Of a DNA stretch of 48,161 bases, positions 7,517 to 44,913 are shown piece after piece. The stretch comes from a virus. How positions within the stretch are numbered: the stretch's first letter is position 1; each line of letters opens with the position of its first letter. The stretch is taken from IMG/VR virus record IMGVR_UViG_3300046804_003658, positions 1 through 48,161 of that record. One strand, 5' to 3'. The position numbers and the translations under genes are program-made. The notes beneath the pieces were generated by a model that did no database searches, had not been told where the DNA came from, and was given only the letters and a program-made list of their open reading frames with translations.

Positions 7517-7533
7517 GGATACAGGATCATGGA

Positions 7534-8310: not shown

Positions 8311-8311
8311 C

Positions 8312-8470
8312 ATGTATGACGCCTCGGATGTTCCCGGACGCATACAATTACAGTTTAGAGATCAAGTCAGTTGTGAACTGGCTTTACAATCAATGACCTC
8401 ATGGGTCAAGTTTCCATGGTTTAGAGTAGAGGGAAGATGTGAGCAAAAAAATATTAATGGTAACAGATAA
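8312..8470 (+). CDS. small hypothetical protein between plcP and agt
   Basis: 52 residues with ATG at 8312 directly after the plcP stop. It overlaps the next gene's GTG start by 32 nt. It is mixed helix/strand with two Cys and no known domain. It may serve mainly to couple translation of the glycosyltransferase. Confidence 0.5.
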   Translation: MYDASDVPGRIQLQFRDQVSCELALQSMTSWVKFPWFRVEGRCEQKNINGNR

Positions 8471-28043: not shown

Positions 28044-28728
28044 GATTACCCCGCATATCTCTGTATCACACACCATGCGACGATTTTATCGTCGCTATGA
28101 TCATAAGTTGACCTACTTCATACCAGGAGCCAGTGCAGTACCTAGATTTAATGAACTATACGATCTCAGTGTTTACTACACTGGACTACGACCCAGTGAC
28201 TACAAAGACGAATCTCAGTATTATCAAGCTGTGCATCAGCGTGGTTTATATTTGGCGCCATTGGCTCGAGCTTATCAACAACGTGGTGTTGATACCAGAT
28301 ACAGAATTGAACGTAATACAGTAAGTATATTTGCTAGTAGCCTTGATCAGTTATATAATCTAGCCCAGACTGACTTGTCTAGTTATGCCACAAACCTACG
28401 CACACTGACTACACCTGCTAGTACAAAGGACCAGCAGGTCCTAGACCAAGACTGTATTGTGGTACGAAGTCTGCCTGATCATGCTTATCGTGTTTACATA
28501 CGCGATGGATTTTATCGCAATAACAATGAACGACAAGCACTAGTAGACTATCTGGTAAACATAGGAGACCAAGTTCGCATTAGCAAAAATTATTTAGATG
28601 AGATACGTGGCCCAAGTAAATACATTAGAGCTGGTTATTTCCATGTTGCTGATCCTAGATTAGTAGACATGATCAGTTTAATCATGCCAAGATTAGTACA
28701 GCGTGTTCAACAATTAGTAGTAGCCTAA
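28015..28728 (+). CDS. conserved phage protein of unknown function
   Basis: 237 residues, basic and aromatic, with TMRRFYRRYDHKLTYFIPGA near the N-terminus, a pattern seen in marine phage proteins. Start at 28015 or 28021 (the second gives MDISLWRKITPH). The C-terminal part with VVRSLPDHAYRVYIRDGF may be a small alpha/beta domain. There is no catalytic signature. Confidence 0.72.
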   Translation: MKMDISLWRKITPHISVSHTMRRFYRRYDHKLTYFIPGASAVPRFNELYDLSVYYTGLRPSDYKDESQYYQAVHQRGLYLAPLARAYQQRGVDTRYRIERNTVSIFASSLDQLYNLAQTDLSSYATNLRTLTTPASTKDQQVLDQDCIVVRSLPDHAYRVYIRDGFYRNNNERQALVDYLVNIGDQVRISKNYLDEIRGPSKYIRAGYFHVADPRLVDMISLIMPRLVQRVQQLVVA

Positions 28729-28738
28729 ATCAAAAATT

Positions 28739-29611
28739 ATGGAAACCAATACAACATCAACCAACTCAACCGTGGAGTTACCCGGTAAAACAGCCACTGA
28801 TGTAGTGGCCAAAATCTCAGAGCTAATGAAAAAGCAAAAAGCTGCCAAGGAAGAATCTGAAACTGGAGAAAAACCCAAAGGTATTCCCTATGACTTCAGC
28901 AAGATTCACCTGCACATAGGCATTCCCTGCTATGGTGGCATGATGAGTGAACCCACTGTAACCAGCTTGCTTAAATTTATCTTAATGGCCAGTCGTGCTG
29001 GTTTGAACTGGAGCCTAGACACCATGGTCAATGAAAGTCTAATCACTCGTGGGCGTAACAACCTAATGGCCAAGATGATGAGCAACCAAAGTGCTACACA
29101 TTTTATGTTCATTGACGCAGACATTAGATTCGAACCAGACAGTATTTTCCAAATGCTGGTTTACGAAAAAGATGTCATTGGTGGACTGTATCCTAAGAAA
29201 AGTATTCCTACCAACTATGTGATTAATCTGCTGCCACAAACACAGATTCATGGGGATACATTTACTGTGGATACCATGGGCACTGGATTTTTAATTTTTA
29301 AACGCGAAGTTTATCAGAAATTGTGCGATGCACACCCAGAATGCAAATATGTAGACGATGTGGGTCTAGGCAAGCAGTATGAGCCTTATATGTACGCTAT
29401 CTTTGATGTGGGCATTGATGAAAAAGGTCACTATCTCAGTGAAGACTGGATGTTCTGCCGGCGTTGGCAAAAGCTAGGTGGTACTATCTGGGCACACAGC
29501 AAGGTCTTACTGAACCACTGTGGACACTATGAGTATAAAGGCGACCTGTCACAGATGCCGTCATTTACTAAACCAGAAGCCAAGTCGCAGCCAGAACCGT
29601 CGGCTGCATAG
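28739..29611 (+). CDS. GT-A-fold glycosyltransferase
   Basis: 290 residues. A polar N-terminus (1-55) precedes a nucleotide-sugar domain: LHIGIPCYGGMM, ESLITRGRNNLMAKMM, then DxD-type FIDADIRFEPD, IGGLYPKK and DTMGTGFLIFKREVY, with EDWMFCRRW near the end. This is the phage GT-A type that may glycosylate virion proteins or DNA bases. No lipid link is seen. A rho-independent terminator follows. Confidence 0.82.
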   Translation: METNTTSTNSTVELPGKTATDVVAKISELMKKQKAAKEESETGEKPKGIPYDFSKIHLHIGIPCYGGMMSEPTVTSLLKFILMASRAGLNWSLDTMVNESLITRGRNNLMAKMMSNQSATHFMFIDADIRFEPDSIFQMLVYEKDVIGGLYPKKSIPTNYVINLLPQTQIHGDTFTVDTMGTGFLIFKREVYQKLCDAHPECKYVDDVGLGKQYEPYMYAIFDVGIDEKGHYLSEDWMFCRRWQKLGGTIWAHSKVLLNHCGHYEYKGDLSQMPSFTKPEAKSQPEPSAA

Positions 29612-29620
29612 AAGTCAAGA

Positions 29621-29643
29621 AGCCGCTAGCAGCGGCTTTTTTT
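29621..29643 (+). terminator. rho-independent terminator
   Basis: AGCCGCT-AGC-AGCGGCT stem-loop (29621-29637) followed by a run of seven T (29637-29643). It separates the chaperone/glycosyltransferase unit from the capsid-cargo cassette. Confidence 0.92.
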
Positions 29644-29651
29644 GTGGGACC

Positions 29652-29659
29652 ATAAATAT
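29652..29659 (+). promoter_or_regulatory. late-promoter-like ATAAATAT
   Basis: CATAAATAT, close to T4 late TATAAATA, lies directly after the terminator and 7 nt before ATG 29666. No ribosome binding site is seen between, so a near-leaderless transcript is possible. Confidence 0.5.
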
Positions 29660-29665
29660 GTTATT

Positions 29666-30412
29666 ATGTTCCTAACCGAAATCTTTGAAGCAGCTACAGT
29701 GCCCATAGTGGTAATCTATCCGGGTAGATTCCAACCGTTCCACAAGGGTCATTATAAAGTATTTGAGTATCTCACAAAAAAGTTTGGTAGAGATAATGTC
29801 TACATAGCTACCAGCAACAAGGTAGCGCCACCCAAAAGTCCTTTTAATTTTTCACAAAAGGCCGCTATGATGCGCCTAACTGGCGTACCCATGGATCGTG
29901 TAGTAGAAACACGTGAGCCATATCGTGCTGATGAAATCTTGGCCAAGTATCCTGTTGAAACTCGTGTGATTTATGCTGTCAGCGAAAAGGACATGGCCGA
30001 AGATCCACGCTTTGCTAAGTTCACTAAAAAGGACGGATCGCCTAGTTATTTCCAGCCAGCACCTGCCAAACTCAAAGACATGCAAAACAAGGAACAGCAT
30101 GCCTATATAATGACCGTGCCTACATTCGAATTTACTGTACTAGGTCAACCCATGCATAGTGCCACAGAACTACGTCGTCAATTCTCTCAAGCCGACGATG
30201 ACACACAGCGTGCCATGGTACAAGATCTGTTTGGTGCATTTGATCAAGAAGTCTATGCTATCATGCGCGACCAAATACATGAAGATGCTGCTGGCGTAGG
30301 TGTCGTTGCCAGCAAGAAACAGCGCAAGGATCCGCGTTATCTTAACAGTCTCACAGTAGATGTGCAACCGGGTACACAGCGTAAGATGATGAAGGCGCTG
30401 CGCCTAATATAA
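29666..30412 (+). CDS. nucleotidylyltransferase (HxGH) with capsid-targeting-like N-terminus
   Basis: 248 residues from ATG 29666. Residues 1-10 MFLTEIFEAA closely resemble T4 Alt's capsid-targeting start, with IFE as a likely prohead-protease site. The domain follows directly: VIYPGRFQPFHKGH (HxGH at 26-29) and, later, SATELRR (the ISTxxR-like motif), which together bind nucleotide in the NMN/pantetheine-phosphate/CTP-transferase class. The last 30 residues form a basic tail. It is not a full NadM or CoaD. The substrate is unknown. Confidence 0.82.
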   Translation: MFLTEIFEAATVPIVVIYPGRFQPFHKGHYKVFEYLTKKFGRDNVYIATSNKVAPPKSPFNFSQKAAMMRLTGVPMDRVVETREPYRADEILAKYPVETRVIYAVSEKDMAEDPRFAKFTKKDGSPSYFQPAPAKLKDMQNKEQHAYIMTVPTFEFTVLGQPMHSATELRRQFSQADDDTQRAMVQDLFGAFDQEVYAIMRDQIHEDAAGVGVVASKKQRKDPRYLNSLTVDVQPGTQRKMMKALRLI

Positions 30413-30416
30413 ATAT
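30408..30416 (+). promoter_or_regulatory. late promoter TATAAATAT
   Basis: TATAAATAT overlaps the stop of the previous gene and lies 22 nt before ATG 30439, the spacing expected for a T4-type late -10. Confidence 0.6.
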
Positions 30417-30438
30417 AGATATTAACTGGACTAAACAC

Positions 30439-30969
30439 ATGAAACCCACTGATTTTATCACTGAAAACCATAACATTGTACAGGCCGTGGTAGAAATGCA
30501 TGACGATCACGAAATACAAATGGCTCGTGAACAGTGCTATACAGCAGCCAGTCATGCCATTGAACTGCATCGCATGCTGAAACACATCACCGAGCGTGAA
30601 GGACTAGAAGGCTGGGTTCAGGAAAAAATCACCTTGGCATCTGACTATCTACGTCAAGTCAAAGAGTGGATGGAATACGAAATGATGAGCAAGATGAACC
30701 AGCCAATGGGCGAAACAGCCAGTGCTGGTGCCAGTGCAAGCGGTAGTATAGCTGCTAATCCCATGTCATTTAGAAAAATGCAGCGTAGAGTCAAGGAACA
30801 AGACTACGATCCTGTAAAGAGTGGTGAGGAAGCTAGACAAAAGCTAAAGACACCAGCAGTGTTTCGTAAAAGCATGCGTCAGCGTCCAGCCACACTAGGC
30901 GACGTTGAGCGTAGTCAACAACATCGTAGCAGCAGCTCAGTGCTGGGTCAGCAGAACACCAAGGGCTAA
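30439..30969 (+). CDS. conserved phage protein with FITE N-terminus (putative capsid-targeted)
   Basis: 176 residues starting MKPTDFITENHN, with ITE at residues 7-9 as a likely gp21-type site. A helical region (EIQMAREQCYTAASHAIELH, RMLKHI) follows and recurs in marine T4-like phages. It ends with an Arg/Ser-rich tail. This could be an internal head protein. Function unknown. Confidence 0.75.
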   Translation: MKPTDFITENHNIVQAVVEMHDDHEIQMAREQCYTAASHAIELHRMLKHITEREGLEGWVQEKITLASDYLRQVKEWMEYEMMSKMNQPMGETASAGASASGSIAANPMSFRKMQRRVKEQDYDPVKSGEEARQKLKTPAVFRKSMRQRPATLGDVERSQQHRSSSSVLGQQNTKG

Positions 30970-30970
30970 T

Positions 30971-31234
30971 ATGAAACTCAGTGAAATTGGCTATATTCAG
31001 CCCACTACCAATACCAGTATGCCAGCGCCGGGCAGTCAGCCCAAGCCCCCTGCTGGGGCAGTTAGTCCACAGGCTGTGAAACCTGCAGATCCTGCTGCTA
31101 ATGTACAAGTCGGCGGCACTACTATCATGGATCCGAATAAGTTTAAACAAGACATTATCAACAAAATCAAAACAGATTCAAAGGCCGCCGGCCAATTTGG
31201 TGATTTACTCACTACTCTACTAAAGAAAAAATAA
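30971..31234 (+). CDS. small proline-rich protein, related N-terminus
   Basis: 87 residues beginning MKLSEIGYIQPT, a weaker version of the cassette N-terminus with no Glu at the expected cut. The middle is Pro/Ala-rich and disordered; the C-terminal helix is basic. Starts 1 nt after the previous stop. No fold is recognised. Confidence 0.7.
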   Translation: MKLSEIGYIQPTTNTSMPAPGSQPKPPAGAVSPQAVKPADPAANVQVGGTTIMDPNKFKQDIINKIKTDSKAAGQFGDLLTTLLKKK

Positions 31235-31235
31235 C

Positions 31236-31676
31236 ATGCGAGTCAGTGACATATTCAGCGAACAAGTTCCTGTACCACAGTCAAGGCCTGCAGAAACTCA
31301 ATCAGCTCCTGCCAAGAAACCTGCGAATCCCATAGATCGTGTGACCATGGATGTGCCGCTGTTGCTGCGTATCATGGAATACAGCAAAGAAGATGCCAAA
31401 ACTGACATGGATCTGCATCACGTAGTCGAAAAGCTAGTTGAACTCAGTGCCAATGGACAAGCACTGAACATGGACAACTATAATGACATTGTCGGCAGTG
31501 TGCAGGAAGGCAGTGCCGAAGGTCTAGCACCAGCAGAAAAGCTAATCAAAGACGTAGAATATCAACCCGAACGCAGCGACGACGAAGAAGATGTGCAAGA
31601 AGGCCATGGTCGCTATTGGTGCAGCACTGACAAGCGTTGGAAAGAACGCAAAGGTCCCAAGCAATCGAGGGGCTAG
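31236..31676 (+). CDS. conserved phage protein with FSE N-terminus (putative capsid-targeted)
   Basis: 146 residues. The start MRVSDIFSEQVPVP carries the targeting-like signal (FSE at 7-9). The linker is Pro-rich, then a helical domain (DVPLLLRIMEYSKEDAKTDM...VVEKLVELSANG). The C-terminus GRYWCSTDKRWKERKGPKQ is a short Trp/Cys/Lys motif seen at the ends of several marine phage proteins. Confidence 0.77.
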   Translation: MRVSDIFSEQVPVPQSRPAETQSAPAKKPANPIDRVTMDVPLLLRIMEYSKEDAKTDMDLHHVVEKLVELSANGQALNMDNYNDIVGSVQEGSAEGLAPAEKLIKDVEYQPERSDDEEDVQEGHGRYWCSTDKRWKERKGPKQSRG

Positions 31677-31677
31677 T

Positions 31678-32364
31678 GTGCGTGTTGATCAACTATTTGA
31701 TGATAGCCTAAACGAAATCATACTACTGCCCCAGGAGATGTACAAAGGGGACTGGCTAAACAAAATACCTTACAAACGGTATATGGATGATCGTATACCT
31801 TTTCCCAACAGTGACACACTGCTGTTGAGTTTTCAAAACAACTTCGAAGACATCTATGTGGTAGACCCTGATGGGCAGAGAGTAGCTGCTAAGATGAGTA
31901 TGGAGCCTGTGACCTTTCCGTCTAAACGAGCCAAGACTGTGGCTGGTATAATTGTGGATCCTGACTACCGAGGACAAGGTATAGCACAGACACTGTATCA
32001 GGTGGTCCTGCGTAGCCTAAAAGTCCTGCTCATTGCCGGTGACGTACAAACCGCTGGTGGTGCAGCCAATTGGCTTAGACTCAGCGGTATCCCCGGCGTC
32101 GAAGTCATGGGTTATATCAGCATCAGTCATCGCAGTTTAGATACACGGACGCCACGTGAGATAGGTAATATCCTAGCACAGGATCTATTAGAAATAGGCG
32201 GATTCCATATTGGTCGCCGCCAAGGCACAGACTTTTATGCGTTTCCTGTTAGACGTGGTTTTGATCGTATGGAAACCAAAATACGTAACAGCATAATTGA
32301 ATTATATGGCTATGACGATGTCAGTTATGAAATTGGCATGTTTGCACACTGGGTAGGACGATGA
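31678..32364 (+). CDS. GNAT-type acyltransferase with targeting-like N-terminus
   Basis: 228 residues from GTG 31678, which overlaps the previous stop; a longer frame upstream overlaps that gene by 86 nt and is less likely. The N-terminus RVDQLFDDSLNEI has LNE as possible cut. Residues 80-120 hold the acetyl-CoA motif VAGIIVDPDYRGQGIAQTLY (RxxGxA). Likely an N-acetyltransferase; target unknown. Confidence 0.75.
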   Translation: MRVDQLFDDSLNEIILLPQEMYKGDWLNKIPYKRYMDDRIPFPNSDTLLLSFQNNFEDIYVVDPDGQRVAAKMSMEPVTFPSKRAKTVAGIIVDPDYRGQGIAQTLYQVVLRSLKVLLIAGDVQTAGGAANWLRLSGIPGVEVMGYISISHRSLDTRTPREIGNILAQDLLEIGGFHIGRRQGTDFYAFPVRRGFDRMETKIRNSIIELYGYDDVSYEIGMFAHWVGR

Positions 32365-34670
32365 GAGCTAGACATTTTATTATATCAGAAGCCGAACTGT
32401 TTGAAATAAACATGAGTCCCGGCAACCTTAAACAGTTGGCCAGTAAAATAGACGCTCGTGTGGGCATGGAATTTGAAATGATTGTGCCCAATATCGAATC
32501 CGACGAGAACAGCGAAAGCGAACCCGATTATACCAATGATGAGCGTGTACGCGGTTGGAGTTCCATTGAACAATTTTACAACGACGGTGAATACAACTCA
32601 AGATCCTCAGTAGCTAGACTACATGGGGAACTGACTCAAGAATACACAGAAAGTGACTACTGGCAGGAAGCCGAAGACTCGTGGTGGGAAGAAAACGAAG
32701 AATACTATGTAGAACAAGCAGTTGAAAAAGAACTAGGCGAAGAGCTTTGGGAACAGGCTGCGGAACAGTTAGGCAACAAAAAGTTTGCCGACGAGCGTGA
32801 TCGTAAAAATGCCATACAAGAGATATACAGCACTCTGGTCTCGGATCGTAGAGATGAAAGTATAGAGAACCGAGACGAAATCTATGATCTAGCTCGTGAC
32901 GACGCCATGGAGGAGTCTGAGCCAGACCATGACACCGGCTTTGATCGTTTCCTGCGTGACCAATATAGCTACATGACCGACATTGAAAGTAGTTTCGGTC
33001 ATATCGTAACTTGGCCGCATTGGGAGATGAGCGGCGATACCGATATTGATATCAGCACAGTAGCTAACGATTTCTCCCCTTTTGTTAACATGAAGGTAGA
33101 CTACAGCCAAAGTTATCACGGTGCCAAACGCCGACCAGATACCTATGTGGTTGAACCTGACTCCAGTTTAACCGGAGACAATCCCGGCGACACAGGCTTA
33201 GAGTTCGTGAGTCCACCATTGACCCTAGAACAAATGGGCAAGCACTTGGAAGCTGTACGAGAATTCGCTGAGTTTTATCACTGCTATACTAATCGTACCA
33301 CTGGTCTACACATCAATGTCAGCGTACCCAACATGAACTTGGAAAACCTAGACTATGTTAAGTTGGCGCTACTCTTAGGTGACAAGTATGTATTGGAACA
33401 ATTTGGTAGATCTGCCAATACCTACTGTAAAAGTGCCATGGAAGAAATACTGAGCCGAGCTAAAAGCAATCGTGATCAAGTTCCTGGCTTATTAGACATG
33501 ATGAAGAATGGCCTAAACAAAATGGCCAGTAAAATGATACACAGTGGTATCACCGGCAAGTATACCAGTATCAATACCAAAGACAAATACATTGAGTTTC
33601 GTAGCCCAGGTGGCGACTGGCTCAAAGAAGACCTAGACAAGATTGTGGCCACTATGAATCGCTTTGCTGTGGCCTTAGACGCCGCAGTTGATCCAGAAAA
33701 GTACAAAGAAGAATACAGTAAAAAATTATACAAAGTCATAGCACCAGAAGATGCTGATGATACCATCAAGTACTTTGCCAAATATGCGGCAGGAGCCATG
33801 CCCAAGGCAGCACTAAAGAGTTTCCTTAAACAAGCAAAACTAGAACGCGAAGTCAAGCGTAAGCCCGATTCTGGCAAACGCTATTGGTGGCATGTCACAG
33901 TGGCAGGCAGTGGTGCAGGAACGGAAGTAGTTGCCGCTAATCGGGATGAAGCCATTGATGCTGCCATAGCCCATAACTCGGGACTGGCACGATACAATCG
34001 CGGTGCGTTTTCAGCCACAGTAATGAAGCCTTATGAAGAACCCGAGACTCCACCAAACAATGTACCTGTAAGTAGCACTGGATCATACATGGTAGTCAGT
34101 AGTAGCACTGCATTACCACTAGGACAATACGACACTGAAGAACAGGCCATGACAGCAGCACGAGAGTGGGCTAATCAGCGAAATGAGCGTGTTTTAGTAC
34201 GACACGGTCTTGGTACCAGACCAGTAGAGCCCAATGAACAACCGCGTAGACAAGACGGATCAATGACCGCACCCGAAACTGACCCTGATGCTAATTATGC
34301 TATTATAAGATCCAGTGACGACGCTGTTATTATCTACTTTACTAGAAACACTAGGGCGGAAGCAGAACGGTCATTCACTCAGTGGCTGGCGTCACAAGGT
34401 ATAACAGGCGATACCACACACCCATATTATCTTATTGCCATAAGACCCCGGCGTGATCCTGAGAGTCAAGCCAATGACGGAGCCTGGACCGGGCGTTGGA
34501 ACATTGTCACAGATCAAGGACAGGTCTTACATACATTTGGTGGTGTAGGTAATAGCCAAGCCGATGCCAATGCTCATGCTAGAGAGTGGCTAGAAAGAAA
34601 TAGTAGATTGGCTCGATCAGCAGCAGGAGGATCACTCCTTGGACTAACAGTTGTTCCGGACCGTGCATGA
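32361..34670 (+). CDS. amidoligase-like enzyme with repeated C-terminal domains and targeting-like N-terminus
   Basis: 769 residues. Start MRARHFIISEAEL has ISE at 8-10. Residues 30-430 show amidoligase-type blocks: GMEFEM (35-40), GLEFVSPPLTLEQM (279-292), TTGLHINVSVPN (313-324) and KYIEFRSPGGDWL (about 415). This family makes amide bonds using ATP and is often found with peptide or cell-wall chemistry. An acidic helical insert lies at 85-190. The C-terminal third has about four copies of a 60-residue repeat (WWHVTVAGS..., SYMVVSSS..., NYAIIRSSDD..., RWNIVTDQG...), possibly binding domains. Confidence 0.73.
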   Translation: MRARHFIISEAELFEINMSPGNLKQLASKIDARVGMEFEMIVPNIESDENSESEPDYTNDERVRGWSSIEQFYNDGEYNSRSSVARLHGELTQEYTESDYWQEAEDSWWEENEEYYVEQAVEKELGEELWEQAAEQLGNKKFADERDRKNAIQEIYSTLVSDRRDESIENRDEIYDLARDDAMEESEPDHDTGFDRFLRDQYSYMTDIESSFGHIVTWPHWEMSGDTDIDISTVANDFSPFVNMKVDYSQSYHGAKRRPDTYVVEPDSSLTGDNPGDTGLEFVSPPLTLEQMGKHLEAVREFAEFYHCYTNRTTGLHINVSVPNMNLENLDYVKLALLLGDKYVLEQFGRSANTYCKSAMEEILSRAKSNRDQVPGLLDMMKNGLNKMASKMIHSGITGKYTSINTKDKYIEFRSPGGDWLKEDLDKIVATMNRFAVALDAAVDPEKYKEEYSKKLYKVIAPEDADDTIKYFAKYAAGAMPKAALKSFLKQAKLEREVKRKPDSGKRYWWHVTVAGSGAGTEVVAANRDEAIDAAIAHNSGLARYNRGAFSATVMKPYEEPETPPNNVPVSSTGSYMVVSSSTALPLGQYDTEEQAMTAAREWANQRNERVLVRHGLGTRPVEPNEQPRRQDGSMTAPETDPDANYAIIRSSDDAVIIYFTRNTRAEAERSFTQWLASQGITGDTTHPYYLIAIRPRRDPESQANDGAWTGRWNIVTDQGQVLHTFGGVGNSQADANAHAREWLERNSRLARSAAGGSLLGLTVVPDRA

Positions 34671-35125
34671 GAATTCACGAATTAGTCAATACCAAATCCT
34701 TGAATCCTGAATTTAAAGATCAGCGACAAGTTGGCGATATATTACTTAAGGCCCAAGGTGGTAGCACAGGAAGACTACATGTTCGTGCGTTTGATGTATC
34801 TGACCCCGGCAATCCTGTAGAAGCAGGTTTCGCTGATTTTGCTATTAGAACTAACGCACAAGGCGAAGATTATCTTAGAGCATATTATACTTTTGTCAAC
34901 AAGTCTTATCGCGGCAAAGGTATAGCGAAACAAATATATCTGTTTGTCAACGACATAGGCAATGACATCATGCCCAGTGAATTACAAACCGATCTAGGTA
35001 AAAAAATGTGGCGAGGTCTCAGTAAATCTATTAGACAGCCCAATGGTCAACCGGCACCTAAACCCGAGCCCGAGCCTACTAGATTAGATAAATTCAAGAA
35101 ATTTTTCTCAGGATTTGGCAAATGA
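34667..35125 (+). CDS. GNAT-like domain protein
   Basis: 152 residues. N-terminus MRIHELVNTKSL resembles its neighbours' but lacks the cut-site Glu. The middle has an acyl-CoA-binding-like motif FVNKSYRGKGIAKQIYLFV (RGKGIA). A proline-rich linker and basic helical tail follow. Overlaps both neighbours by 4 nt. The acetyltransferase assignment is moderate. Confidence 0.68.
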   Translation: MRIHELVNTKSLNPEFKDQRQVGDILLKAQGGSTGRLHVRAFDVSDPGNPVEAGFADFAIRTNAQGEDYLRAYYTFVNKSYRGKGIAKQIYLFVNDIGNDIMPSELQTDLGKKMWRGLSKSIRQPNGQPAPKPEPEPTRLDKFKKFFSGFGK

Positions 35126-36912
35126 GAGTACATCATTTATTCGAAGGTGGCTGGACTACCACAGTTACGCAAAACACCGTGATTACTCCTGCTGTGGTAC
35201 GCAGTAGTTTGGCTGTGATGAATCAGTTTGTGCGTGAGTTTAATCGTTATTTAAAAACTAAAAACTTACCTGAAGTGCGAATGGGACGACCAACCGGTAG
35301 CAGTGCTTATCACGCTGTAGATGATCCAGACAAAATCTACGGAGACATCGATCTACAAATGATTGCTCCACAACTGGAGCCAGGTAGTCAAAGTGCCTAT
35401 GGTGGTTTTTGGAATAAACTAGCACATAGTTTTATCATGGAAACTATGCCCGATTATGTAGATGCCGCCGAAAGCAAGATTGGTCATCCCATATTACGCA
35501 TCGGTGCGGATCAATTTGTACAAATAGATTTCATGTGGCACACACCAGAACTCAGTGACTGGGGTGCGGCCCGTGTTACTCCTGAGCGTGGAGTAAAGGG
35601 CCTGTTGTTTGGCAAGATGTTCAGTGTGTTTGGCGAAATGCTAGGCATGAGTATACAACATGCTGGTGTACAATATAAAACCATCAACGGTCTACGAGTA
35701 CCATTTAGCAAACAAAAAGGTGTTGAAATCAACACCATTAGTAGCAATCCTAAAACTTATATTGTAGACATACTACGCTGGATCGCTGCTAGACAAGGTG
35801 TCAAGCGTGTAAAAATTAACCCTATGTTGGCACAAAACTCAGGCACCGACATCAACGATGTACGCATACAGCGATTGGTGCGTAGTGTGAAAGGCTTTGC
35901 TGCCAGTGCTGAAGCCAATGGCTTATTCGGTCAAGGCGACCTAGCCAATTATAGTAGCGCAGATGATTTTATTACTCGGTTCGTACAGCAGTATCGCGCC
36001 GAGTCAGAAGCAGAAATGGTCAGTGCCAAACGCGACAAGGCTTCAACACCTGCTGCCATTGCTAGAGCCGAAGCCGATCGTGAAAAGATTCGCACCGGCC
36101 TGGACACAGTAATGGGTTACTTTCGCGAGGGTATCGAATTAGAAGAAGACTGGCCCAAATGGTTTGCCACTGGCTTAGGCGCTGCTGCTGTGGCCACTGG
36201 TATGGCTCATCGCCAAGGCCCTGCTTATGACAAACCACAGCCTTATGTGGCCCCCGTAGCACAGGTAGCCGCAGCGCAGCGTCCACAAACTGCTCCTGCA
36301 CCGGTACCTCAGGCCAAAGTGGCTCCTGCTGTGAAATCAGCGGAACCAGCTAAGACTGCGGCAAAACAATTACCGCCCGTAGAAAAGCCACAGATAAAAA
36401 ATAAACCAATTACATTAGAAAATCCCAAAGCCAATGTACTAGCACAGCGAGCACAAAAGTCTGGTATTAAGGGCATCGAACTAGCACAATTCCTAGCACA
36501 GATGGAACACGAGTCTTGGGATTTTCGTAAGATGAAAGAAGTTCCCCAGGGCAAGGATTATTTCAAACGCTATGACCCCAAACATGCTCCTCGTACAGCA
36601 CAAAAGCTAGGCAATGTCAAGGCCGGTGACGGCGAGCGTTTTCGAGGGCGCGGTTTCATACAGTTGACTGGCCGTGATAACTATCGTGCTGCCAGCCAAG
36701 CACTGGGCGTTGATTTAATAAAGAATCCTGATCTTGCTGCTCGTCCAGACATTGCTGCTGAAATTGCCATATGGTATTGGTTTGAGCGTGTGCGCCCGGG
36801 TGTAATGGATTTTGCCAATACTGTGGCAGTGACCAAGCGTATAAATCCTGCACTAGCTGGTATAGAAGATAGACACGAGAATTTCAAATATTACCTTAAA
36901 TACATGCGATGA
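35122..36912 (+). CDS. nucleotidyltransferase-GH19 muramidase fusion with targeting-like N-terminus
   Basis: 596 residues. Start MRVHHLFEGG has LFE at 6-8. Residues 45-240 are a nucleotidyltransferase fold: PTGSSAY (GS at 59-60), GDIDLQM (D75, D77) and QIDFMW (third Asp, about 136). A small TM-like segment WFATGLGAAAVATGMAH (about 350) and an Ala/Pro linker lead to a C-terminal GH19 domain (440-596) with MEHESWDF and FRGRGFIQLTGRDNY. This is a second muramidase, distinct from the endolysin; a virion-borne one would fit local cell-wall opening. Confidence 0.82.
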   Translation: MRVHHLFEGGWTTTVTQNTVITPAVVRSSLAVMNQFVREFNRYLKTKNLPEVRMGRPTGSSAYHAVDDPDKIYGDIDLQMIAPQLEPGSQSAYGGFWNKLAHSFIMETMPDYVDAAESKIGHPILRIGADQFVQIDFMWHTPELSDWGAARVTPERGVKGLLFGKMFSVFGEMLGMSIQHAGVQYKTINGLRVPFSKQKGVEINTISSNPKTYIVDILRWIAARQGVKRVKINPMLAQNSGTDINDVRIQRLVRSVKGFAASAEANGLFGQGDLANYSSADDFITRFVQQYRAESEAEMVSAKRDKASTPAAIARAEADREKIRTGLDTVMGYFREGIELEEDWPKWFATGLGAAAVATGMAHRQGPAYDKPQPYVAPVAQVAAAQRPQTAPAPVPQAKVAPAVKSAEPAKTAAKQLPPVEKPQIKNKPITLENPKANVLAQRAQKSGIKGIELAQFLAQMEHESWDFRKMKEVPQGKDYFKRYDPKHAPRTAQKLGNVKAGDGERFRGRGFIQLTGRDNYRAASQALGVDLIKNPDLAARPDIAAEIAIWYWFERVRPGVMDFANTVAVTKRINPALAGIEDRHENFKYYLKYMR

Positions 36913-38261
36913 GAGCTACCGAATTCCTAATTGAACGTATTAGCAGTAGAGTATTTCATTATACTCGTGTTACCACTGCTCTCAAAATACTACAGACTGG
37001 TAAGTTTGAACTCAGTCATACACTGGGCACAAGTTGGGAAGCACAGTTCGCACCACAAGGTTATCCTTACTTTCTCAGCACTACAAGAACACGCCATGGT
37101 GGGTATCATGGATGGCTCGGGCAGGATGCTGTGTTATTAGAACTCGATGGTGATTTTTATAATCAACGCTACCCCGGTAAAGCCGTAGACTATTGGAACA
37201 ATCGCGATCCTGCCAAAGACCATCATAAAGCACACGAAGCCGAAGATCGTATATTCAGCAAAGAGGCTGCTATACCTGCTGCTATTCGTGCTATAGATCT
37301 TTACATAGCACCAGACGCTGATGATGCTGCTCGTGCTCGCACAAGACAGGTTATTATTTTAGCCAAAAAGTCCGGTATACCCGTTAACTTGTTTAATGAC
37401 CAAGAAGCATGGCGTCAGCGTGATACTAGAAAGACAGCAGATGTCGGTCAGCTTACGGGCCAGGATCCTGCTCGTGGTTATGTGTCAAGTCGTAGAGGCG
37501 GATACTTAAAACCCTGGATGGAACTCATGCAGGCCAAGACCAAGGCACAGTTAAGTAAGGACGCTGATCGTCGGCGTTATGATCTACAATACACTTACGA
37601 TCGGCAAGGCTTGGCTAAGAGTCTAGCAGTAGACCTAAGCAATGCTCGTAAGCCAGGGCCGGATCCAGATCGCAACAATGCCATAAGAATCATCAAGTTC
37701 ATGCAACAAAACCAGCTGGCCACTGTCAACGACTTTGTTGATTATCTAGCTGACAAATGGAAGAACATCAAAGAAGATATCACAGAAGATAGCAGGCCAG
37801 TCTACCATCTCCCTGAAGTTGTGCTGATTTTAGATCCACATTTTTTCGAACGTATAGGCACAAGAGAACTTAATCGACGAGTGGTAGAACAACTCTTAGA
37901 TCGACTTAAAAGTATTACTCGAGAATTACATCAATTTGAGCCAGGACAAAAGATTTGGGTCAATAGTCCCAGTCTACGAGCTAAGTTAGGTATGCGTAGG
38001 CAAATGGATCGCAATGGTAAAATGACTTATCTGCTTAAGACTATTGTAAAAGATCCAAAATGGGATAATCCAGATCCCACGATTACTGTGGAAAACTTTG
38101 CCGACGGACGGAAGCCTGGTCGTAAAGGTTTAAGTAAAAGAGTCGGAATACCAAAAAAAGCTACCCTGGCACAATTAGAAAAGATTGCTGGATCTAGCAC
38201 TGGTGAACGTCGACGAATGGCTCAATGGCAATTAAATATGCGACGTGGAAAAAGCAAATAA
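36909..38261 (+). CDS. ADP-ribosyltransferase-like protein with targeting-like N-terminus and basic tail
   Basis: 450 residues. Start MRATEFLIERIS has LIE at 7-9. Residues 13-90 have an ART/DarT-like pattern: VFHYTRVTTALKILQTG, then PYFLSTTRTR (STT block) and VLLELDGD. The catalytic Glu is not certain. Residues 230-400 are charged. The C-terminal 45 residues (KGLSKRVGIPKKATLAQL and GERRRMAQWQLNM) form a basic motif shared with many marine phage proteins, probably nucleic-acid binding. T4 Alt, an injected ART, is the obvious functional parallel. Confidence 0.65.
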   Translation: MRATEFLIERISSRVFHYTRVTTALKILQTGKFELSHTLGTSWEAQFAPQGYPYFLSTTRTRHGGYHGWLGQDAVLLELDGDFYNQRYPGKAVDYWNNRDPAKDHHKAHEAEDRIFSKEAAIPAAIRAIDLYIAPDADDAARARTRQVIILAKKSGIPVNLFNDQEAWRQRDTRKTADVGQLTGQDPARGYVSSRRGGYLKPWMELMQAKTKAQLSKDADRRRYDLQYTYDRQGLAKSLAVDLSNARKPGPDPDRNNAIRIIKFMQQNQLATVNDFVDYLADKWKNIKEDITEDSRPVYHLPEVVLILDPHFFERIGTRELNRRVVEQLLDRLKSITRELHQFEPGQKIWVNSPSLRAKLGMRRQMDRNGKMTYLLKTIVKDPKWDNPDPTITVENFADGRKPGRKGLSKRVGIPKKATLAQLEKIAGSSTGERRRMAQWQLNMRRGKSK

Positions 38262-38262
38262 C

Positions 38263-38958
38263 ATGCCTGAAAATTTTGTACAAGGTAATGTTGCTTATAA
38301 CCAGACTCTGGCTCCTGAGGCCTGGATTGATTCTGGTCTGCGTCGCGAAGTGCGTTATAAGTTATTAAAAGCAGCACAGATGTTCATAGACACACTGGAT
38401 ATCAACAACTTCAAGCTCTATGACATTGTGCTAACCGGCAGCATGGCCAACTATAACTACACTCGATACAGCGATTTCGATGTGCATGTGGTTACCAAAT
38501 ACAGCGAATTAGACTGTGACGATTTAGCTGAAGCATTTTATTCGGCCAAAAAAAAGATTTGGAACGATGATCATGATATCATAGTGCGTGGACATGAGGT
38601 AGAGCTATATGTGGAAGATCTAGATCAACCCCCGGTTGCGGCTGGTATCTACAGTCTATTAGATAATGTTTGGATAAAGCAACCTAGTTATGATCTGCCG
38701 ACTATAGCAGACTTAGACGTCAATGCCAAGGTACTTGATCTTATTAAACAAATACAAGCAACCATTGAAGGAGCCAATGAAGCCAATGACATACGTAGAT
38801 TGCTGTATAAACTCCGTAATATGCGCCAAAGTGGCCTAGAGCGTCACGGAGAATACGGTGTAGAAAACCTGAGCTACAAGATACTGCGTAATCTAGGGTA
38901 TTTAGACAAACTCAGTAAGGCCATAAAAGACCAACAAGATTTAGCACTGAGTTTATGA
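38263..38958 (+). CDS. nucleotidyltransferase domain protein
   Basis: 231 residues from ATG 38263, one base after the previous stop; an upstream ATG at 38245 overlaps it. A minimal nucleotidyltransferase: LTGSMANYNYTRYSDFDVH, GS at 59-60 and DxD at 71-73, followed by VELYVEDL (third Asp/Glu). The helical C-terminus (150-230) may bind substrate. It has no MRxxxF-type start, so it may stay cytoplasmic, unlike its neighbours. Target unknown. Confidence 0.8.
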   Translation: MPENFVQGNVAYNQTLAPEAWIDSGLRREVRYKLLKAAQMFIDTLDINNFKLYDIVLTGSMANYNYTRYSDFDVHVVTKYSELDCDDLAEAFYSAKKKIWNDDHDIIVRGHEVELYVEDLDQPPVAAGIYSLLDNVWIKQPSYDLPTIADLDVNAKVLDLIKQIQATIEGANEANDIRRLLYKLRNMRQSGLERHGEYGVENLSYKILRNLGYLDKLSKAIKDQQDLALSL

Positions 38959-39089
38959 TACCTTGGTATCTGCACTTATATCACCTGGCATGGTTAGTAT
39001 TTTTCTTGGCTTTGGGCCATTACGTTTCCTGGGCATTAACCGGTATAATGTTTTCTGCAATGGCAGTAACTTTTTTCATGTACCGCTAA
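38955..39089 (+). CDS. 44-residue membrane protein
   Basis: ATG 38955 overlaps the previous stop (ATGA). Almost wholly hydrophobic: two helices (about 9-24 and 27-42) with a Gly/His turn. Possibly a small holin- or antiholin-like peptide, but no evidence beyond hydrophobicity. Confidence 0.6.
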   Translation: MIPWYLHLYHLAWLVFFLALGHYVSWALTGIMFSAMAVTFFMYR

Positions 39090-39096
39090 TAAATAT
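39089..39096 (+). promoter_or_regulatory. late-promoter-like ATAAATAT
   Basis: AATAAATAT, overlapping the stop of the 44-residue gene, lies 21 nt before ATG 39118 and is followed by AAGGAA. Same class as at 29652 and 30408. Confidence 0.5.
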
Positions 39097-39117
39097 GTGT
39101 AAGTAAGGAATTCTACA

Positions 39118-40182
39118 ATGAAATCTGCAGATTTTGCCCAAGAAGCAGCTACACCTGCACAACAAGCGGCTATAGCTATTAGTATGAAGCGAGCTGGTAA
39201 GAAACCCAAAAACGAAGACGAAATCGAAGAGCGTTTTCAATTACCAAAACGTCTTGGTACCAGAAGAGATCGTTTTAAAAGTTTGCGTAAAGAAGCTGCC
39301 AAAGACACCGGACCGAAATTCACCGGATATTTTAAAGGCCAAGACAAGCCTCCAGTGGGCAAGAGATTGGTGGGCGAAACAGACATTGAACCCGGCGACT
39401 ATGTACGCACTCACAAAATGGGCTATCGCGGCATGGTAGAAGGTGTTGAGTTATACAGACCATTTGGCGAGCTAGCTGTGTATTTTCGTACCGAGGATGA
39501 TCAACTTCTGCGTACTCCTCTCAGTAATGTATTTCGTATACCAGTTTCAGAAGCAGTTGCAGGAGATGCTAATTTTGATCCTGCGGGAGAATACAAAAAT
39601 TATCCCTTATACGTTACCCTAAAACCTTGGCGTGGTAAATTCATTGCAGTAACAGAAATTGGTAGACAAGAATACAAGGAAGCTGGTGCCACACGTGAAC
39701 TAGCACTACAGGCCATACGTGACCGCATTGACTTTCTGCTCAACGCTCAACGCAAAGTAGAAGCCAGTGCCAGTATTGATTTCAATAAACGTTTTGTAAC
39801 AGATATATTAGCTAGTCCCAGAGAAAAGTTTTTCGCTAAGATTGCCAATATTGGTGGTCAACCCAAGTTGGTCATTGCCGGCGACGAAATGCTGACCTTT
39901 GGGCGTGAACTAGCCGAGCTGGGATTCAAGCCCAGTGCACTGCGTATTGATCCAGAAAATCCCGATGCTACCCCATTACCTGGCATCGGGTATACCAAGA
40001 ATCAAATCAGCGGGTTAGGATTGATTGCCAATGGCAGATACGTAATTGGCAACATGCAGGTAGACAGCGACGGTAATCGAATTTTTGATCTCAAATACGA
40101 CAGCACAGTACATACCAAAAGCGATAAACTAAGATTAAATCAGCCTGCTTTGACAGTGGGTACCCGACGCAGCGAGGCATAA
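39118..40182 (+). CDS. structural/internal-type protein with FAQE N-terminus
   Basis: 354 residues. Start MKSADFAQEAATPAQQAA: FAQE at 6-9 is a looser version of the targeting signal, and the following AATPAQQAAIAISMKRAGKK pattern recurs in marine phage proteins. It then has a basic region and beta-rich domains (IEPGDYVRTHKMGYRGMVEG, SH3-like; KNYPLYVTLKPWRGKFIAV). No catalytic motif. May be an internal head protein. Confidence 0.75.
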   Translation: MKSADFAQEAATPAQQAAIAISMKRAGKKPKNEDEIEERFQLPKRLGTRRDRFKSLRKEAAKDTGPKFTGYFKGQDKPPVGKRLVGETDIEPGDYVRTHKMGYRGMVEGVELYRPFGELAVYFRTEDDQLLRTPLSNVFRIPVSEAVAGDANFDPAGEYKNYPLYVTLKPWRGKFIAVTEIGRQEYKEAGATRELALQAIRDRIDFLLNAQRKVEASASIDFNKRFVTDILASPREKFFAKIANIGGQPKLVIAGDEMLTFGRELAELGFKPSALRIDPENPDATPLPGIGYTKNQISGLGLIANGRYVIGNMQVDSDGNRIFDLKYDSTVHTKSDKLRLNQPALTVGTRRSEA

Positions 40183-40183
40183 C

Positions 40184-40351
40184 ATGGAAAACTACATAGA
40201 CGACAATGAAGCATACTATCGTTTGACACATCGTTGTGGATGTGGATGTTTTCATCATTGCAAAGGCGAATGTCTCACAGATGGCTGCGATTGTAAAGAA
40301 TGTACATGCAACGACTGCATAGACAAGCACATAATCAAAAGCAATAACTAA
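40184..40351 (+). CDS. 55-residue cysteine-rich protein
   Basis: Ten Cys in 28 residues (CGCGCFHHC...CDCKECTCNDC), with two extra His: metallothionein-like density or two zinc clusters. The stop overlaps the next ATG by one base (TAATG), which supports it being real. Confidence 0.7.
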   Translation: MENYIDDNEAYYRLTHRCGCGCFHHCKGECLTDGCDCKECTCNDCIDKHIIKSNN

Positions 40352-40770
40352 TGCGTAATCTAATTCGTATTGTGGAAGCTGCAAGTAAGGGTTGTCCACG
40401 AGCCACACACGACATTGATCTCAATCTTAAAAATCGGCAACGTGCCATTGACGAATACCACTATGGTCCAGCCAATCCTGACGAGCCAGGCGATTACTGG
40501 AAAGCAGCGGCCGAACGTTGGGATATCACAGAAAAAATAGCCAAGACCATGCGGTGCGGTAACTGTGCTGCCTTTGATGTATCCGACAAGATGTGGGCTT
40601 GTATTGAATCGGGTATCAAGGGCGACGAGAAGCATGCTGATGCTATGGCTACTATACACAAGGCAGACTTGGGATACTGTAATTTCTTACATTTCAAATG
40701 TGCCGGAAGCCGTTCATGTACTGCCTTTGTAACAGGCGGCGCCATAGACAATCGCGACCGAACAAAATAA
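40351..40770 (+). CDS. Cys-rich conserved phage protein with IVE N-terminus
   Basis: 139 residues. Start MRNLIRIVEAASK matches the cassette's signature (IVE at 7-9). Then a block ATHDIDLNLKNRQRAIDEYH and a metal-binding C-terminal half with CGNCAAF and four further Cys. Recurs in cyanophage-like myoviruses. Function unknown. Confidence 0.77.
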   Translation: MRNLIRIVEAASKGCPRATHDIDLNLKNRQRAIDEYHYGPANPDEPGDYWKAAAERWDITEKIAKTMRCGNCAAFDVSDKMWACIESGIKGDEKHADAMATIHKADLGYCNFLHFKCAGSRSCTAFVTGGAIDNRDRTK

Positions 40771-41553: not shown

Positions 41554-41814
41554 ATGAGCGATCGCATGTTCAGTGCCGAACAAAAGGCCAAACTCACACA
41601 GATAATCAACGAAGGCATTCAGGTCATGACCGAAATCGAAGACCTTAATGCTGGGCTCAGTGACACTATCAAAGCAGTAGCAGAAGAATTAGAAATTAAA
41701 CCAGCTATACTGAAAAAGGCCATTCGAATTGCTGCTAAAAGCAAGTTAGGAGAAACCAATCGAGACAATGAAGATCTAAATACTATTTTGGAGACCGTAG
41801 GTCGTACTCTATGA
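41554..41814 (+). CDS. dsbA: DsbA-like dsDNA-binding late-transcription factor
   Basis: 86 residues from ATG 41554 behind AAGGAG; an in-frame TTG is 3 nt upstream. A helical protein with the block IKAVAEELEIKPAILKKAIRIA typical of the T4-like DsbA family, which binds double-stranded DNA near late promoters in T4. It overlaps the polymerase start by 4 nt. Confidence 0.78.
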   Translation: MSDRMFSAEQKAKLTQIINEGIQVMTEIEDLNAGLSDTIKAVAEELEIKPAILKKAIRIAAKSKLGETNRDNEDLNTILETVGRTL

Positions 41815-43433
41815 GTTATGTGGACGCTCTGTATTCCAGAGACGATAATCGTGTCTATGTGGTAGAACGTGTCAACGGAGAACGTCACTATCGTGACTAC
41901 CCAGCCGAGTATCGATTTTACTATGATGATCCTCGTGGCAAGTTTCGAACTATCTATGGAACCACTGTCAGTAGATTCAGCACTCGCAATATCAAAGAGT
42001 ACAACAAAGAGCTTAAACTGCACAGTCATCAACGACTTTGGGAATCAGATATTAAGCCAGTTAACCGATGCTTGGAAGAAAACTATCTAGGACAAGCTGC
42101 ACCTAAACTGCACACAGCATTTTTCGATATTGAGGTCGATTTTGATCCAGTACGCGGATTCAGTCGACCTGAAGATCCTTTCAATCCGGTGACTGCAATC
42201 ACTGTGTACCTAGATTGGTTAGATCGATTAGTTACCTTGGTTGTTCCTCCACAGACACTGAGTTGGAGCAGTGCTCAAGAGCTGACCAGTCGATTTGAAA
42301 ACTGTTTTCTCATTGAGCGCGAAGAAGATCTCATACAGACCTTTTTGGACTTGATTGATGATGCTGACATACTGTCGGGCTGGAACTCCGAAGGTTTTGA
42401 TATTCCTTACATGGTCATGCGTACCAACCGTATACTCAGCAAAGACGATACCCGCAGATTCTGTTTGTGGAATCAATATCCCAAACAGCGCACATTCGAA
42501 CGATTTGGTGCCGAGCACATTACTTTTGATCTTAGTGGTCGTGTGCATCTGGACTATATGCAGTTATACAGAAAGTATACCTATGAAGAACGCCATAGCT
42601 ATAGTTTGGATGCCATTGGAGAGTATGAGCTAGACGAACGTAAAATTCAATATGAAGGAACCTTAGACCAATTATACAATAGAGACTTTGGTACATTTGT
42701 AGATTATAACAGACAAGATACCATGCTGTTGGCCAAACTGGATCGCAAACTGCGATTCCTAGACCTAGCCAATGAACTAGCACATGACAACACTGTGTTA
42801 TTGCCCACTACCATGGGTGCTGTAGCGGTCACCGAGCAGGCCATTATCAACGAAGCCCATAGTTTAGGGCTTGTAGTTCAGAATAGGAAATCATCAGATG
42901 GTGACACACAAGCAGCAGGTGCCTACGTTGCTTATCCCAAAAGGGGCATGCACGAATACATTGGCGCCATTGACATCAATTCGCTGTACCCCAGTGCGAT
43001 CCGCGCTCTTAACATGGCGCCAGAAACCATCGTGGGACAACTGCGACCAACCTATACAGAAAAATACATAGCTGATAAAATAGCAGAAGGATCCAGCTTT
43101 GCTGACGCTTGGGAAGGTTTATTTGGCAGCATGGAGTATACCGCAGTCATGGAGCAAGAGCCAGGTAGAGAAATCACCATAGATTGGGAAACTGGTGGTT
43201 CAGATACCATGATGGCTCGTGATGTTTATCATTTGATCTTCGAGGGTCAACAACCTTGGATATTAAGCGCAAATGGAACTATCTTTAAATATGATACCAA
43301 AGGCATTGTACCAGGCCTACTTGAACGTTGGTACGCGGAAAGGAAAGTAATGCAAAGAACTAAAAAACAATTTCAAGAACTATTCCAAGGTATAGAAATA
43401 CCAGACAGATTAAAAACTAGTCCAAAAAATTAA
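41811..43433 (+). CDS. 43A: DNA polymerase gp43, N-terminal half (gp43A)
   Basis: 540 residues of a T4-type family-B DNA polymerase. Proofreading: exo I FFDIEVD (D106, E108), exo II SGWNSEGFDIP (N192, D197), exo III YNRQD (Y299, D303). Polymerase motif A DINSLYPSAIR (D388). Ends after WYAERKVMQRTKKQFQEL with an unrelated, AT-rich tail (about 15 residues) and a stop, before motif B. The rest of the polymerase is a separate reading frame 1 kb downstream. Motifs B and C are missing here, so activity needs the second polypeptide. Confidence 0.92.
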   Translation: MSYVDALYSRDDNRVYVVERVNGERHYRDYPAEYRFYYDDPRGKFRTIYGTTVSRFSTRNIKEYNKELKLHSHQRLWESDIKPVNRCLEENYLGQAAPKLHTAFFDIEVDFDPVRGFSRPEDPFNPVTAITVYLDWLDRLVTLVVPPQTLSWSSAQELTSRFENCFLIEREEDLIQTFLDLIDDADILSGWNSEGFDIPYMVMRTNRILSKDDTRRFCLWNQYPKQRTFERFGAEHITFDLSGRVHLDYMQLYRKYTYEERHSYSLDAIGEYELDERKIQYEGTLDQLYNRDFGTFVDYNRQDTMLLAKLDRKLRFLDLANELAHDNTVLLPTTMGAVAVTEQAIINEAHSLGLVVQNRKSSDGDTQAAGAYVAYPKRGMHEYIGAIDINSLYPSAIRALNMAPETIVGQLRPTYTEKYIADKIAEGSSFADAWEGLFGSMEYTAVMEQEPGREITIDWETGGSDTMMARDVYHLIFEGQQPWILSANGTIFKYDTKGIVPGLLERWYAERKVMQRTKKQFQELFQGIEIPDRLKTSPKN

Positions 43434-43476
43434 ACTAAACTCGCTGAGATAAATAATTAAATAATAAAGGGTGTTT

Positions 43477-44466: not shown

Positions 44467-44642
44467 CAAATTAGATTTTATACTGCAAAATGGTACACTA
44501 AAGGAACTTGACAATTTTTGTAGCGAAAACAATTTAATGATTAAAGACGGCAAAATTTACCACCAAAACCAAAAGGAAATCGAAGATGCTATAGAGTATT
44601 GGGATAAGAAGCAACTAGTAAAGAAAATTAATTTAAATTCGT
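44456..44642 (+). CDS. 43B: DNA polymerase second half (gp43B), exon 1
   Basis: Starts at ATG 44456, overlapping the endonuclease stop, with AGAGAGG upstream. Residues 1-41 are an unrelated AT-rich extension; residues 42-62 (EIEDAIEYWDKKQLVKKINL) are the polymerase stretch leading into motif B. It reads N-S then hits TAA in the unspliced RNA. After group I splicing at 44642/44914 the frame continues as L-Y-G-A-I-L-N. Total protein about 403 residues. Confidence 0.83.
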
Positions 44643-44913
44643 AAAAAACAACTGCGACTTCTATTGGTAACAATAGTCGAATAACTCCTCTAATTGCTGG
44701 AAACTCTGACCATGAAAGATGAAGACAATCAGCAGCCAAGCGTATTATATACGAAGGTTCAACGACTAGTTTTAATAACGTAGACTCAAGCGAGTTCGAA
44801 ATGGGGAGCGTCCAACGTTGTTGGACGGTGATATAGTCTGATCCTTATAGAAATATAAGGCAGTTTATAAAAATAAACGGGTTGACTTTAGCGAAGTCAA
44901 TTGAACATAGATG
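44643..44913 (+). ncRNA. group I intron in the polymerase gene
   Basis: 271 nt. 5' exon ends in U (44642) whose UCGU pairs with guide GCGA (44654-44657), giving P1 with the conserved U-G. Core elements: P2 CTATTG-GTAA-CAATAG (44661-44676), P region TAATTGCTGGAAA (from 44691), Q ATCAGCAGCC (44729-44738), R GGTTCAACGACTAG (44756-44769), P8 hairpin CGTCCAA/TTGGACG (44809-44827), S GATATAGTC (44830-44838), P9 CCTTATA-GAAA-TATAAGG (44843-44860) and a further hairpin TTGACTT/AAGTCAA (44882-44900). Last intron base is G (44913). No ORF inside. Confidence 0.92.

Follow-up and report, generated by a model that had tools for sequence, protein, structure and literature searches.

Proteins that a phage injects along with its DNA are hard to recognize because their mature parts share nothing. 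The locus described here raises the question of whether such proteins can be recognized from a short common front. It lies in the complete 48,161-base IMG/VR record IMGVR_UViG_3300046804_003658 (hereafter, the window), which covers part of a far longer T4-like phage genome; the source phage is a large uncultured bacterial virus of the T4 superfamily, a group abundant in the environment. Twelve genes, all on the + strand, form a cassette at positions 29,666–40,770 (named here, in order, g1, g2, g2b, and g3–g11), flanked by a clpA-like gene with its neighbors (25728–29611) and by regA-like and gp43-type DNA polymerase genes, in that order (41554–45938). A preliminary description of this DNA had proposed that the cassette proteins begin with T4-like capsid-targeting sequences (CTSs), cleavable by the prohead protease gp21, in front of unrelated cargo. 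Most cassette genes share a T4-type cuttable front tag, and their products therefore probably travel inside the virion and reach the bacterial cell together with the viral DNA. In all likelihood the cassette encodes late-expressed internal (ejection) proteins of a large T4-superfamily phage, each with a CTS of 8–13 residues.

Leader Motif and Its Enrichment

The leaders span 8–13 residues and appear to follow the approximate form M-[KR]-hydrophobic-x-[DEHQ]-[FIL]-[FILV]-x-E. An [IL]xE triplet with its Glu at residue 5–14 occurs in 9/12 cassette genes versus 2/52 other genes of the window (Fisher, p = 4e-7). When residues 2–15 of the cassette genes were shuffled, matches averaged 2.1, and nine were never reached in 2000 trials. 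The preliminary description had held that most starts fit an (I/L)-x-E rule and had named an equal motif frequency outside the cassette as grounds for abandoning its proposal; the counts agree with the former and are far from the latter. Its strict pattern, M[KR]x(2,5)[FL][IL]xE, proved too narrow (2/12 cassette genes); a trained leader profile and the less restrictive [IL]xE rule took its place. The nine starts that it quoted are all present at their loci, but the genes beginning at 30971 (g2b), 34667 (g6), and 38263 (g9) had been overlooked, and the cassette comprises 12 genes rather than nine.

Applied to all genes of five long relatives, the pattern M[KR]x(2,7)[ILFVM]xE gave 8, 7, 14, 15, and 10 matches, compared with shuffled means of 1.5, 3.0, 5.3, 4.8, and 4.8, respectively. 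In the 322-kb relative G001, [IL]xE is found in 6/10 cassette genes versus 42/360 genes elsewhere (p = 5e-4), a background that makes the triplet weak alone, so that position and composition matter. Gene starts in the relatives come from a simple purpose-written gene caller, and single leaders may therefore be missed or misplaced.

Outside the cassette, a 70-residue protein of the window (11781–11993, − strand) has the leader-like start MRAREFVIN/V (a slash marks the predicted cleavage position), with Asn replacing Glu. The relative G011 contains a second leader-bearing cluster of five large genes (L373 8988–18998, equivalent to G011 28988–38998), with the starts MRYQDFLAE, MRYSELIE, MRYNEIIE, MKSKDFLNE, and MRYNELIE; a Pfam scan of three of the five genes yielded nothing above the cut-off.

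Protease, Capsid Sites, and Selection on the Leader

A genome devoid of a gp21-like protease was likewise to have spoken against the proposal. G001 encodes a Peptidase_S77 protein (the gp21 family; E = 7e-27), and Peptidase_S77 is also present in 10/20 additional long relatives; among the ones of ≥250 kb, a single contig lacks it. A gp21 homolog is thus found in 11 long relatives, while the window fragment itself has none. The major capsid proteins of the relatives are T4 gp23 homologs, and their propeptides contain LLE/G, ILE/N, and L[AKT]E/[STN]. The capsid sites LLTE/AP and FLAE/AP (cyanophages S-CREM2, S-SCSM1) have the same P3–P1′ pattern as the leaders FLTE/A and FLKE/A.

Conservation within the leaders is concentrated at the putative cleavage site. 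Twelve orthologs of the g7 nucleotidyltransferase (NTase) have an identity of 0.30 in the leader versus 0.70 in the mature part, with Glu retained in 12/12 and P3 restricted to I, L, or V in 12/12. For g10 orthologs (n = 7) the corresponding identities are 0.36 and 0.90; Glu is present in 7/7, and Glu-Ala is invariant. The seven g10 leaders (MKSADFAQE, MKLSDIVKE, MKIQEFVVE, MKLSEFIDE, MKPSDFIKE, MRIKDIISE, and MKIKDFVVE) precede a conserved A-[AV]-[TN]-PAQQAAIAI. Because the relatives descend from common ancestors, these ortholog counts do not represent independent events. The relative L005 is 94% identical to the window, and only the leader differs between the two, MRVHHLFE in the window and MRLHEFLTE in L005.

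Recovery of T4 gp21 Substrates

A position profile was derived from 66 leaders of IMG/VR relatives, with the window, G001, and T4 excluded. When the 263 genes called in T4 are scored with it, the ten known gp21 substrates outscore the 253 others (area under the curve 0.91, p = 2e-6), and the top ten includes gp24, gp2, the internal proteins IPII and IPIII, gp22, and Alt. IPI ranks only 36, and gp23, the site of which lies deep inside the protein, is missed. Truncation and suppressor work on T4 IPIII showed that ten residues suffice, positions 4 and 7 serving targeting and positions 8 and 10 processing (PMC9026906). With the Glu aligned as position 10, two hydrophobic residues (F/I/L-I/L/F) occupy the places of positions 7 and 8 in the window leaders.

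Of all T4 genes, gp61.1 (L156 18966–19130, MKTFKEFIKE/D, 54 residues) scores best with the leader profile, ahead of IPII, IPIII, and Alt. From its start, gp61.1 is a candidate for an unrecognized internal protein or a CTS decoy.

Putative Late-Promoter Motif

In a de novo count of 8-mers upstream of genes in five relatives, ATAAATAT ranks first (46 occurrences vs. 1.3 expected). This is a T4-like late-promoter string, which in the relatives lies upstream of tail and other structural genes. The guessed late-promoter strings ATAAATAC and CTAAATAC show no excess in the window; the enriched 8-mer therefore needed the de novo search. The window has four copies of ATAAATAT, each in coding orientation: one precedes a virion-type gene (13349), and the others lie just upstream of g1 (29652–29659, +), upstream of g2 (30409–30416, +), and upstream of g10 (39089–39096, +). 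The copy at g1 is conserved before its orthologs in G010, G021, and G011, and that at g2 before its orthologs in G010 and G021; the string also precedes the first cassette gene of G001. As sequence matches, these motifs suggest the late expression expected of CTS-bearing internal proteins.

Published Cyanophage Virion Proteomes

The virion proteome of cyanophage S-CREM2 comprises 52 proteins (PMC10665884). Four S-CREM2 genes have a strict T4-style leader, MK-x(1,5)-F-[LIM]-x-E, and 4/4 are in the virion list, namely an S-adenosylmethionine (SAM) hydrolase, an APH/ChoK-like kinase, a cytidylyltransferase, and gp13. The association has hypergeometric p values of 0.004 (all virion genes) and 0.0004 (nonstructural ones), which are indicative only, because the pattern, although it has the form of the T4 internal protein leader, was applied after inspection. 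Looser profile thresholds gave marginal values (p = 0.04–0.06). The virion NMNAT of S-SCSM1 starts MKSFLQFLKE/A, and the virion cytidylyltransferase of S-SZBM1 starts MRFRQFIIE/A. Many of the virion proteins of S-CREM2 and S-SCSM1 belong to the tail or other structures and have no leader. Virion-associated NMNAT-like enzymes were already known in cyanophages, with carry-over not excluded by the authors.

Direct comparison with the cassette links g9 to the S-CREM2 virion protein gp156 (41.7% identity over 180 residues, E = 1e-43), so that even a leaderless cassette member has a virion-detected homolog. No direct blastp match was found between g1 and the cyanophage enzymes, which have the superfamily alone in common.

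S-CREM2 gp12 (L182 7704–10313) is annotated as a Cas9-like nuclease and is among the virion proteins; at residue 25 it carries an internal FASFMAE/A site, possibly a displaced leader or a sign of a misannotated start.

Genes of the Cassette

The cassette opens with g1 (29666–30412, +; 248 residues), a cytidylyltransferase-like protein (Pfam CTP_transf_like, 2.9e-10; phrog_395) with the leader MFLTEIFE/A (29666–29689); homologs start MFVFDLFE (G010), MFLNDLYE (G021), and MYIFEMFE (G011). The next gene, g2 (30439–30969, +; 176 residues), encodes no known domain behind its leader MKPTDFITE/N (30439–30465). Its N-terminal ~90 residues share 67% identity with G010 and G021, in which the leaders read MKPIDFIPE and MKPTDFIPE. 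The Pro/Ala-rich g2b (30971–31234, +; 87 residues) has the minimal leader MKLSE/I, and g3 (31236–31676, +; 146 residues; leader MRVSDIFSE/Q, 31236–31262) recurs in G010 as the C-terminal module of a 1236-residue protein. Two genes resemble GNAT acetyltransferases: g4 (31678–32364, +; 228 residues, GTG start; Pfam Acetyltransf_1, 2.5e-6), with the leader MRVDQLFDDSLNE/I (31678–31716), and g6 (34667–35125, +; 152 residues; weak Pfam GNAT match), with the minimal leader MRIHE/L; the g6 homolog in G026 starts MRAHEFLSE/G. Between them lies g5 (32361–34670, +; 769 residues; leader MRARHFIISE/A, 32361–32390), which is amidoligase-like by a weak PHROG match only (phrog_2443, 2.1e-5), Pfam and PDB profile searches giving none. 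Its homolog in Agrobacterium phage Atu_ph07 adjoins portal and prohead genes.

The product of g7 (35122–36912, +; 596 residues; leader MRVHHLFE/G, 35122–35145) combines an NTase-fold domain with a GH19 muramidase/chitinase domain (Pfam GH19, 3.3e-13). In an AlphaFold model of residues 1–335 (pLDDT 78), residues 1–20 are disordered and the fold begins after them. The NTase has the invariant motifs TGSSAYH...YGDIDLQM and FVQIDFMW, and its best PDB matches are CD-NTase/cGAS/OAS proteins; these are weak (E = 3e-3, TM about 0.25) and therefore suggest only the superfamily. No tblastn match to the g7-type NTase was found in cultured phages, so that the family is known here from metagenomic contigs only. 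GH19-like domains occur twice in the window, as a stand-alone endolysin-like gene (23253–23879) and as the C-terminal domain of g7.

The g8 protein (36909–38261, +; 450 residues; leader MRATEFLIE/R, 36909–36935) has an FHYTR motif and no confirmed domain. The ADP-ribosyltransferase (ART)-like label given to it in the preliminary description is not supported here: g8 has no Pfam, PHROG, or PDB profile match, and the AlphaFold model is of low confidence (pLDDT 53; fold search not made). An NTP_transf_2-like nucleotidyltransferase is encoded by g9 (38263–38958, +; 231 residues; phrog_36119, 6e-41), which starts MPENFVQGN, without a leader; its G021 ortholog has the leader MRVKDFKNE/I. The cassette ends with g10 (39118–40182, +; 354 residues; leader MKSADFAQE/A, 39118–39144), which contains a basic AQQAAIAI..KKPK module, and the Cys-rich g11 (40351–40770, +; 139 residues; leader MRNLIRIVE/A, 40351–40377). 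A PADLOC search of the cassette returned weak matches only, none convincing.

The mature parts are mutually unrelated, and gene content is mosaic between related phages at one locus, as in CTS-bearing proteins. That nothing is held in common after the leader, as first described, is nearly right; g4 and g6, both matching GNAT profiles and phrog_3307, are one exception, and some C-terminal and basic modules recur among the cassette genes of relatives. In L008, L009, and L010, GH19 is encoded by a separate gene with a leader, whereas the window and L005 have it fused to the NTase, and in G026 the g9 and g5 domains are joined in one 1625-residue protein. Leader-like starts are also seen in DUF6267 proteins (Pfam PF19782; L392 17069–18961 and L027 11026–12921), one of which is fused to a cytidylyltransferase-like half; DUF6267 homologs occur in 456 phage records, mostly of cyanophages. 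The leader appears to be a swappable tag, and the cargo therefore differs between phages at one locus, from clpA to the regA-like gene and gp43.

Neighboring Regions

The gp43-type DNA polymerase (41811–45938) is split into parts of 540 and 341 residues by a homing-endonuclease-like gene (43477–44466) and a small open reading frame; some relatives have an unsplit 884-residue polymerase. The left arm (360–9757) holds apparent auxiliary metabolic genes, with identities read from sequence: a class III nucleotide-cyclase-like protein (360–1592), a putative secreted PhoX-like phosphatase (3661–5883), a PstS-like phosphate-binding protein (5934–6944), and, within the same region, a probable metallophosphoesterase and glycosyltransferase. 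A predicted fatty-acid-desaturase-like membrane enzyme (12004–12705, −) adjoins virion-type genes.

Interpretation and Alternatives

Motif enrichment and the gp21 homologs of relatives support the central claim of the preliminary description, that a cargo cassette carries T4-like leaders predicted to be cleavable by gp21. Absence of the proteins from virions was also to have counted against that claim; the cyanophage virion proteomes, as proxies, include cassette homologs or leader-bearing members of the same superfamilies. Such internal proteins would be transcribed late from TATAAATA-type promoters, the motifs for which are seen upstream of g1, g2, and g10. By analogy with T4, the amphipathic leader would bind the scaffold core, enclosing the protein in the prohead, and a gp21-like protease would then cleave the [IL]-x-E site behind its Glu, at the same stage as the capsid propeptide. 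The freed mature domains would remain in the head and exit with the DNA at infection, where they may act on host NAD/nucleotide metabolism, protein acetylation, or defense.

Several observations weigh against this interpretation. No gp21 gene is found in the 48-kb window, as expected because the fragment lacks head genes. The g9 protein has no leader, and those of g2b and g6 are minimal only. For the GH19 muramidase domain of g7, if carried in the head, no cytoplasmic target is obvious. In S-SCSM1 the relation between leader and virion presence is not significant (in the virion, 1/2 strict and 1/10 loose matches), since the other strict match has no virion annotation; the leader is thus neither necessary nor always sufficient for virion detection. 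To the post hoc choice of the S-CREM2 pattern is added the caution of the cyanophage proteome authors that CsCl virion preparations may hold non-packaged proteins.

Sites of this kind are not confined to effectors. T4 core proteins gp22, gp24, and gp67 have similar ones, some leader genes of relatives have baseplate and head genes as neighbors (e.g., MKTFLDYLSE, 158840–159430 in G001), and the Atu_ph07 homolog of g5 adjoins a portal gene. The leaders could accordingly mark proteins that enter the prohead to help assemble or build it (as parts of the core, scaffold, or neck) and that either stay behind at infection or play no role in the host. We regard this as unlikely, as enzymes make up most of the annotated cargo domains (cytidylyltransferase, GNAT, NTase, and GH19) and, unlike core head parts, the content varies by phage at a fixed locus. 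Less likely still is that the N-terminal resemblance has nothing to do with packaging and stems from amphipathic starts, a common tag for protein interaction, or convergent composition, in an ordinary early or middle accessory locus. Its appeal lies in the weakness of [IL]xE, with 42/360 non-cassette genes matching in G001, and in the fast evolution of N-termini in general. However, the Glu is invariant and P3 confined to I/L/V, an independent profile recovers the T4 gp21 substrates, late-promoter motifs precede cassette genes, and leader proteins are detected in S-CREM2 virions.

Packaged internal proteins therefore remain the favored reading of the cassette. It is more speculative, and at present rather doubtful, that T4-superfamily phages of fresh and marine waters inject a wide range of enzymes that their genomes reveal through the gp21-cleavable leader, and that among these a CD-NTase-like NTase and cytidylyltransferases reprogram nucleotide/NAD signaling and counter defense in the first minutes of infection. 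A leader pattern kept from T4 to uncultured large phages, and coinciding with virion detection in a cyanophage, provides a sequence test for packaged proteins, and the tag may let cargo be recognized in many environmental phages. DUF6267, phrog_36119, NTase-GH19 fusions, and amidoligase-like proteins become candidate host-takeover or counter-defense factors.

Comparison with Known Systems

CTS-bearing internal proteins, their variability, and their anti-restriction roles are known in T-even phages, where IPI–III enter the host by injection and block the type IV restriction enzymes GmrSD (PMC12373910), and the idea that T4-like phages load varied proteins by CTSs has already been stated (PMC9026906; reviews Mullaney & Black 1996). 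The cassette resembles T4 IPI, IPII, and IPIII in its short [IL]xE-ending leaders, unrelated mature parts, variability between relatives, and late genes. The T4 internal proteins are small, whereas the cassette has at least ten leaders and proteins of up to 769 residues, several with enzyme domains; its leader form, M[KR]I..[FIL][IL]xE, compares with MKTYQEFIAE in T4. Alt, the packaged ART of T4, offers a parallel as a leader-bearing enzyme that is carried in the head and injected. No cassette gene is an Alt homolog by Pfam or PHROG, and no ART domain is confirmed.

Polyvalent proteins of phages and plasmids (PMC5512222) are multi-domain and predicted to be injected with DNA, as the g9–g5 fusion of G026 might be; in the window, by contrast, most of the domains are encoded by genes of their own, and each gene has a separate leader and gp21-type site. 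In phiKZ-like phages, the prohead protease also cuts inner-body and ejection proteins after Glu, and many proteins are ejected (SPN3US, PMC5694885), but the SPN3US propeptides mostly exceed 100 residues and have other site motifs, compared with the short leaders of the cassette.

A parallel in content is the virion cytidylyltransferase/NMNAT, kinase, and SAM hydrolase of T4-like cyanophages (S-SM1, S-SCSM1, S-SZBM1, and S-CREM2), which have a superfamily in common with g1. T4-style leaders were recognized in this work on virion enzymes of S-SCSM1, S-SZBM1, and S-CREM2, and the g9 homolog gp156 is in virions too. The available portions of the cyanophage papers, including the virion-protein section for S-CREM2, mention no targeting leader. 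The cyanophage loci lie between mazG and gp61/nrdA, whereas the window cassette lies between clpA and gp43. In the open-access literature, exclusive of subscription papers and preprints, no paper was found that joins CTS loading with cyanophage virion enzymes. The earlier view of a mostly undescribed arsenal therefore needs qualification, in that a virion cytidylyltransferase/NMNAT-like protein and CTS loading of varied proteins were already published. What this analysis adds is a cassette of several enzymes marked by leaders, found in an abundant group that is uncultured, and, for S-CREM2, a connection between carrying the leader and being detected in virions.

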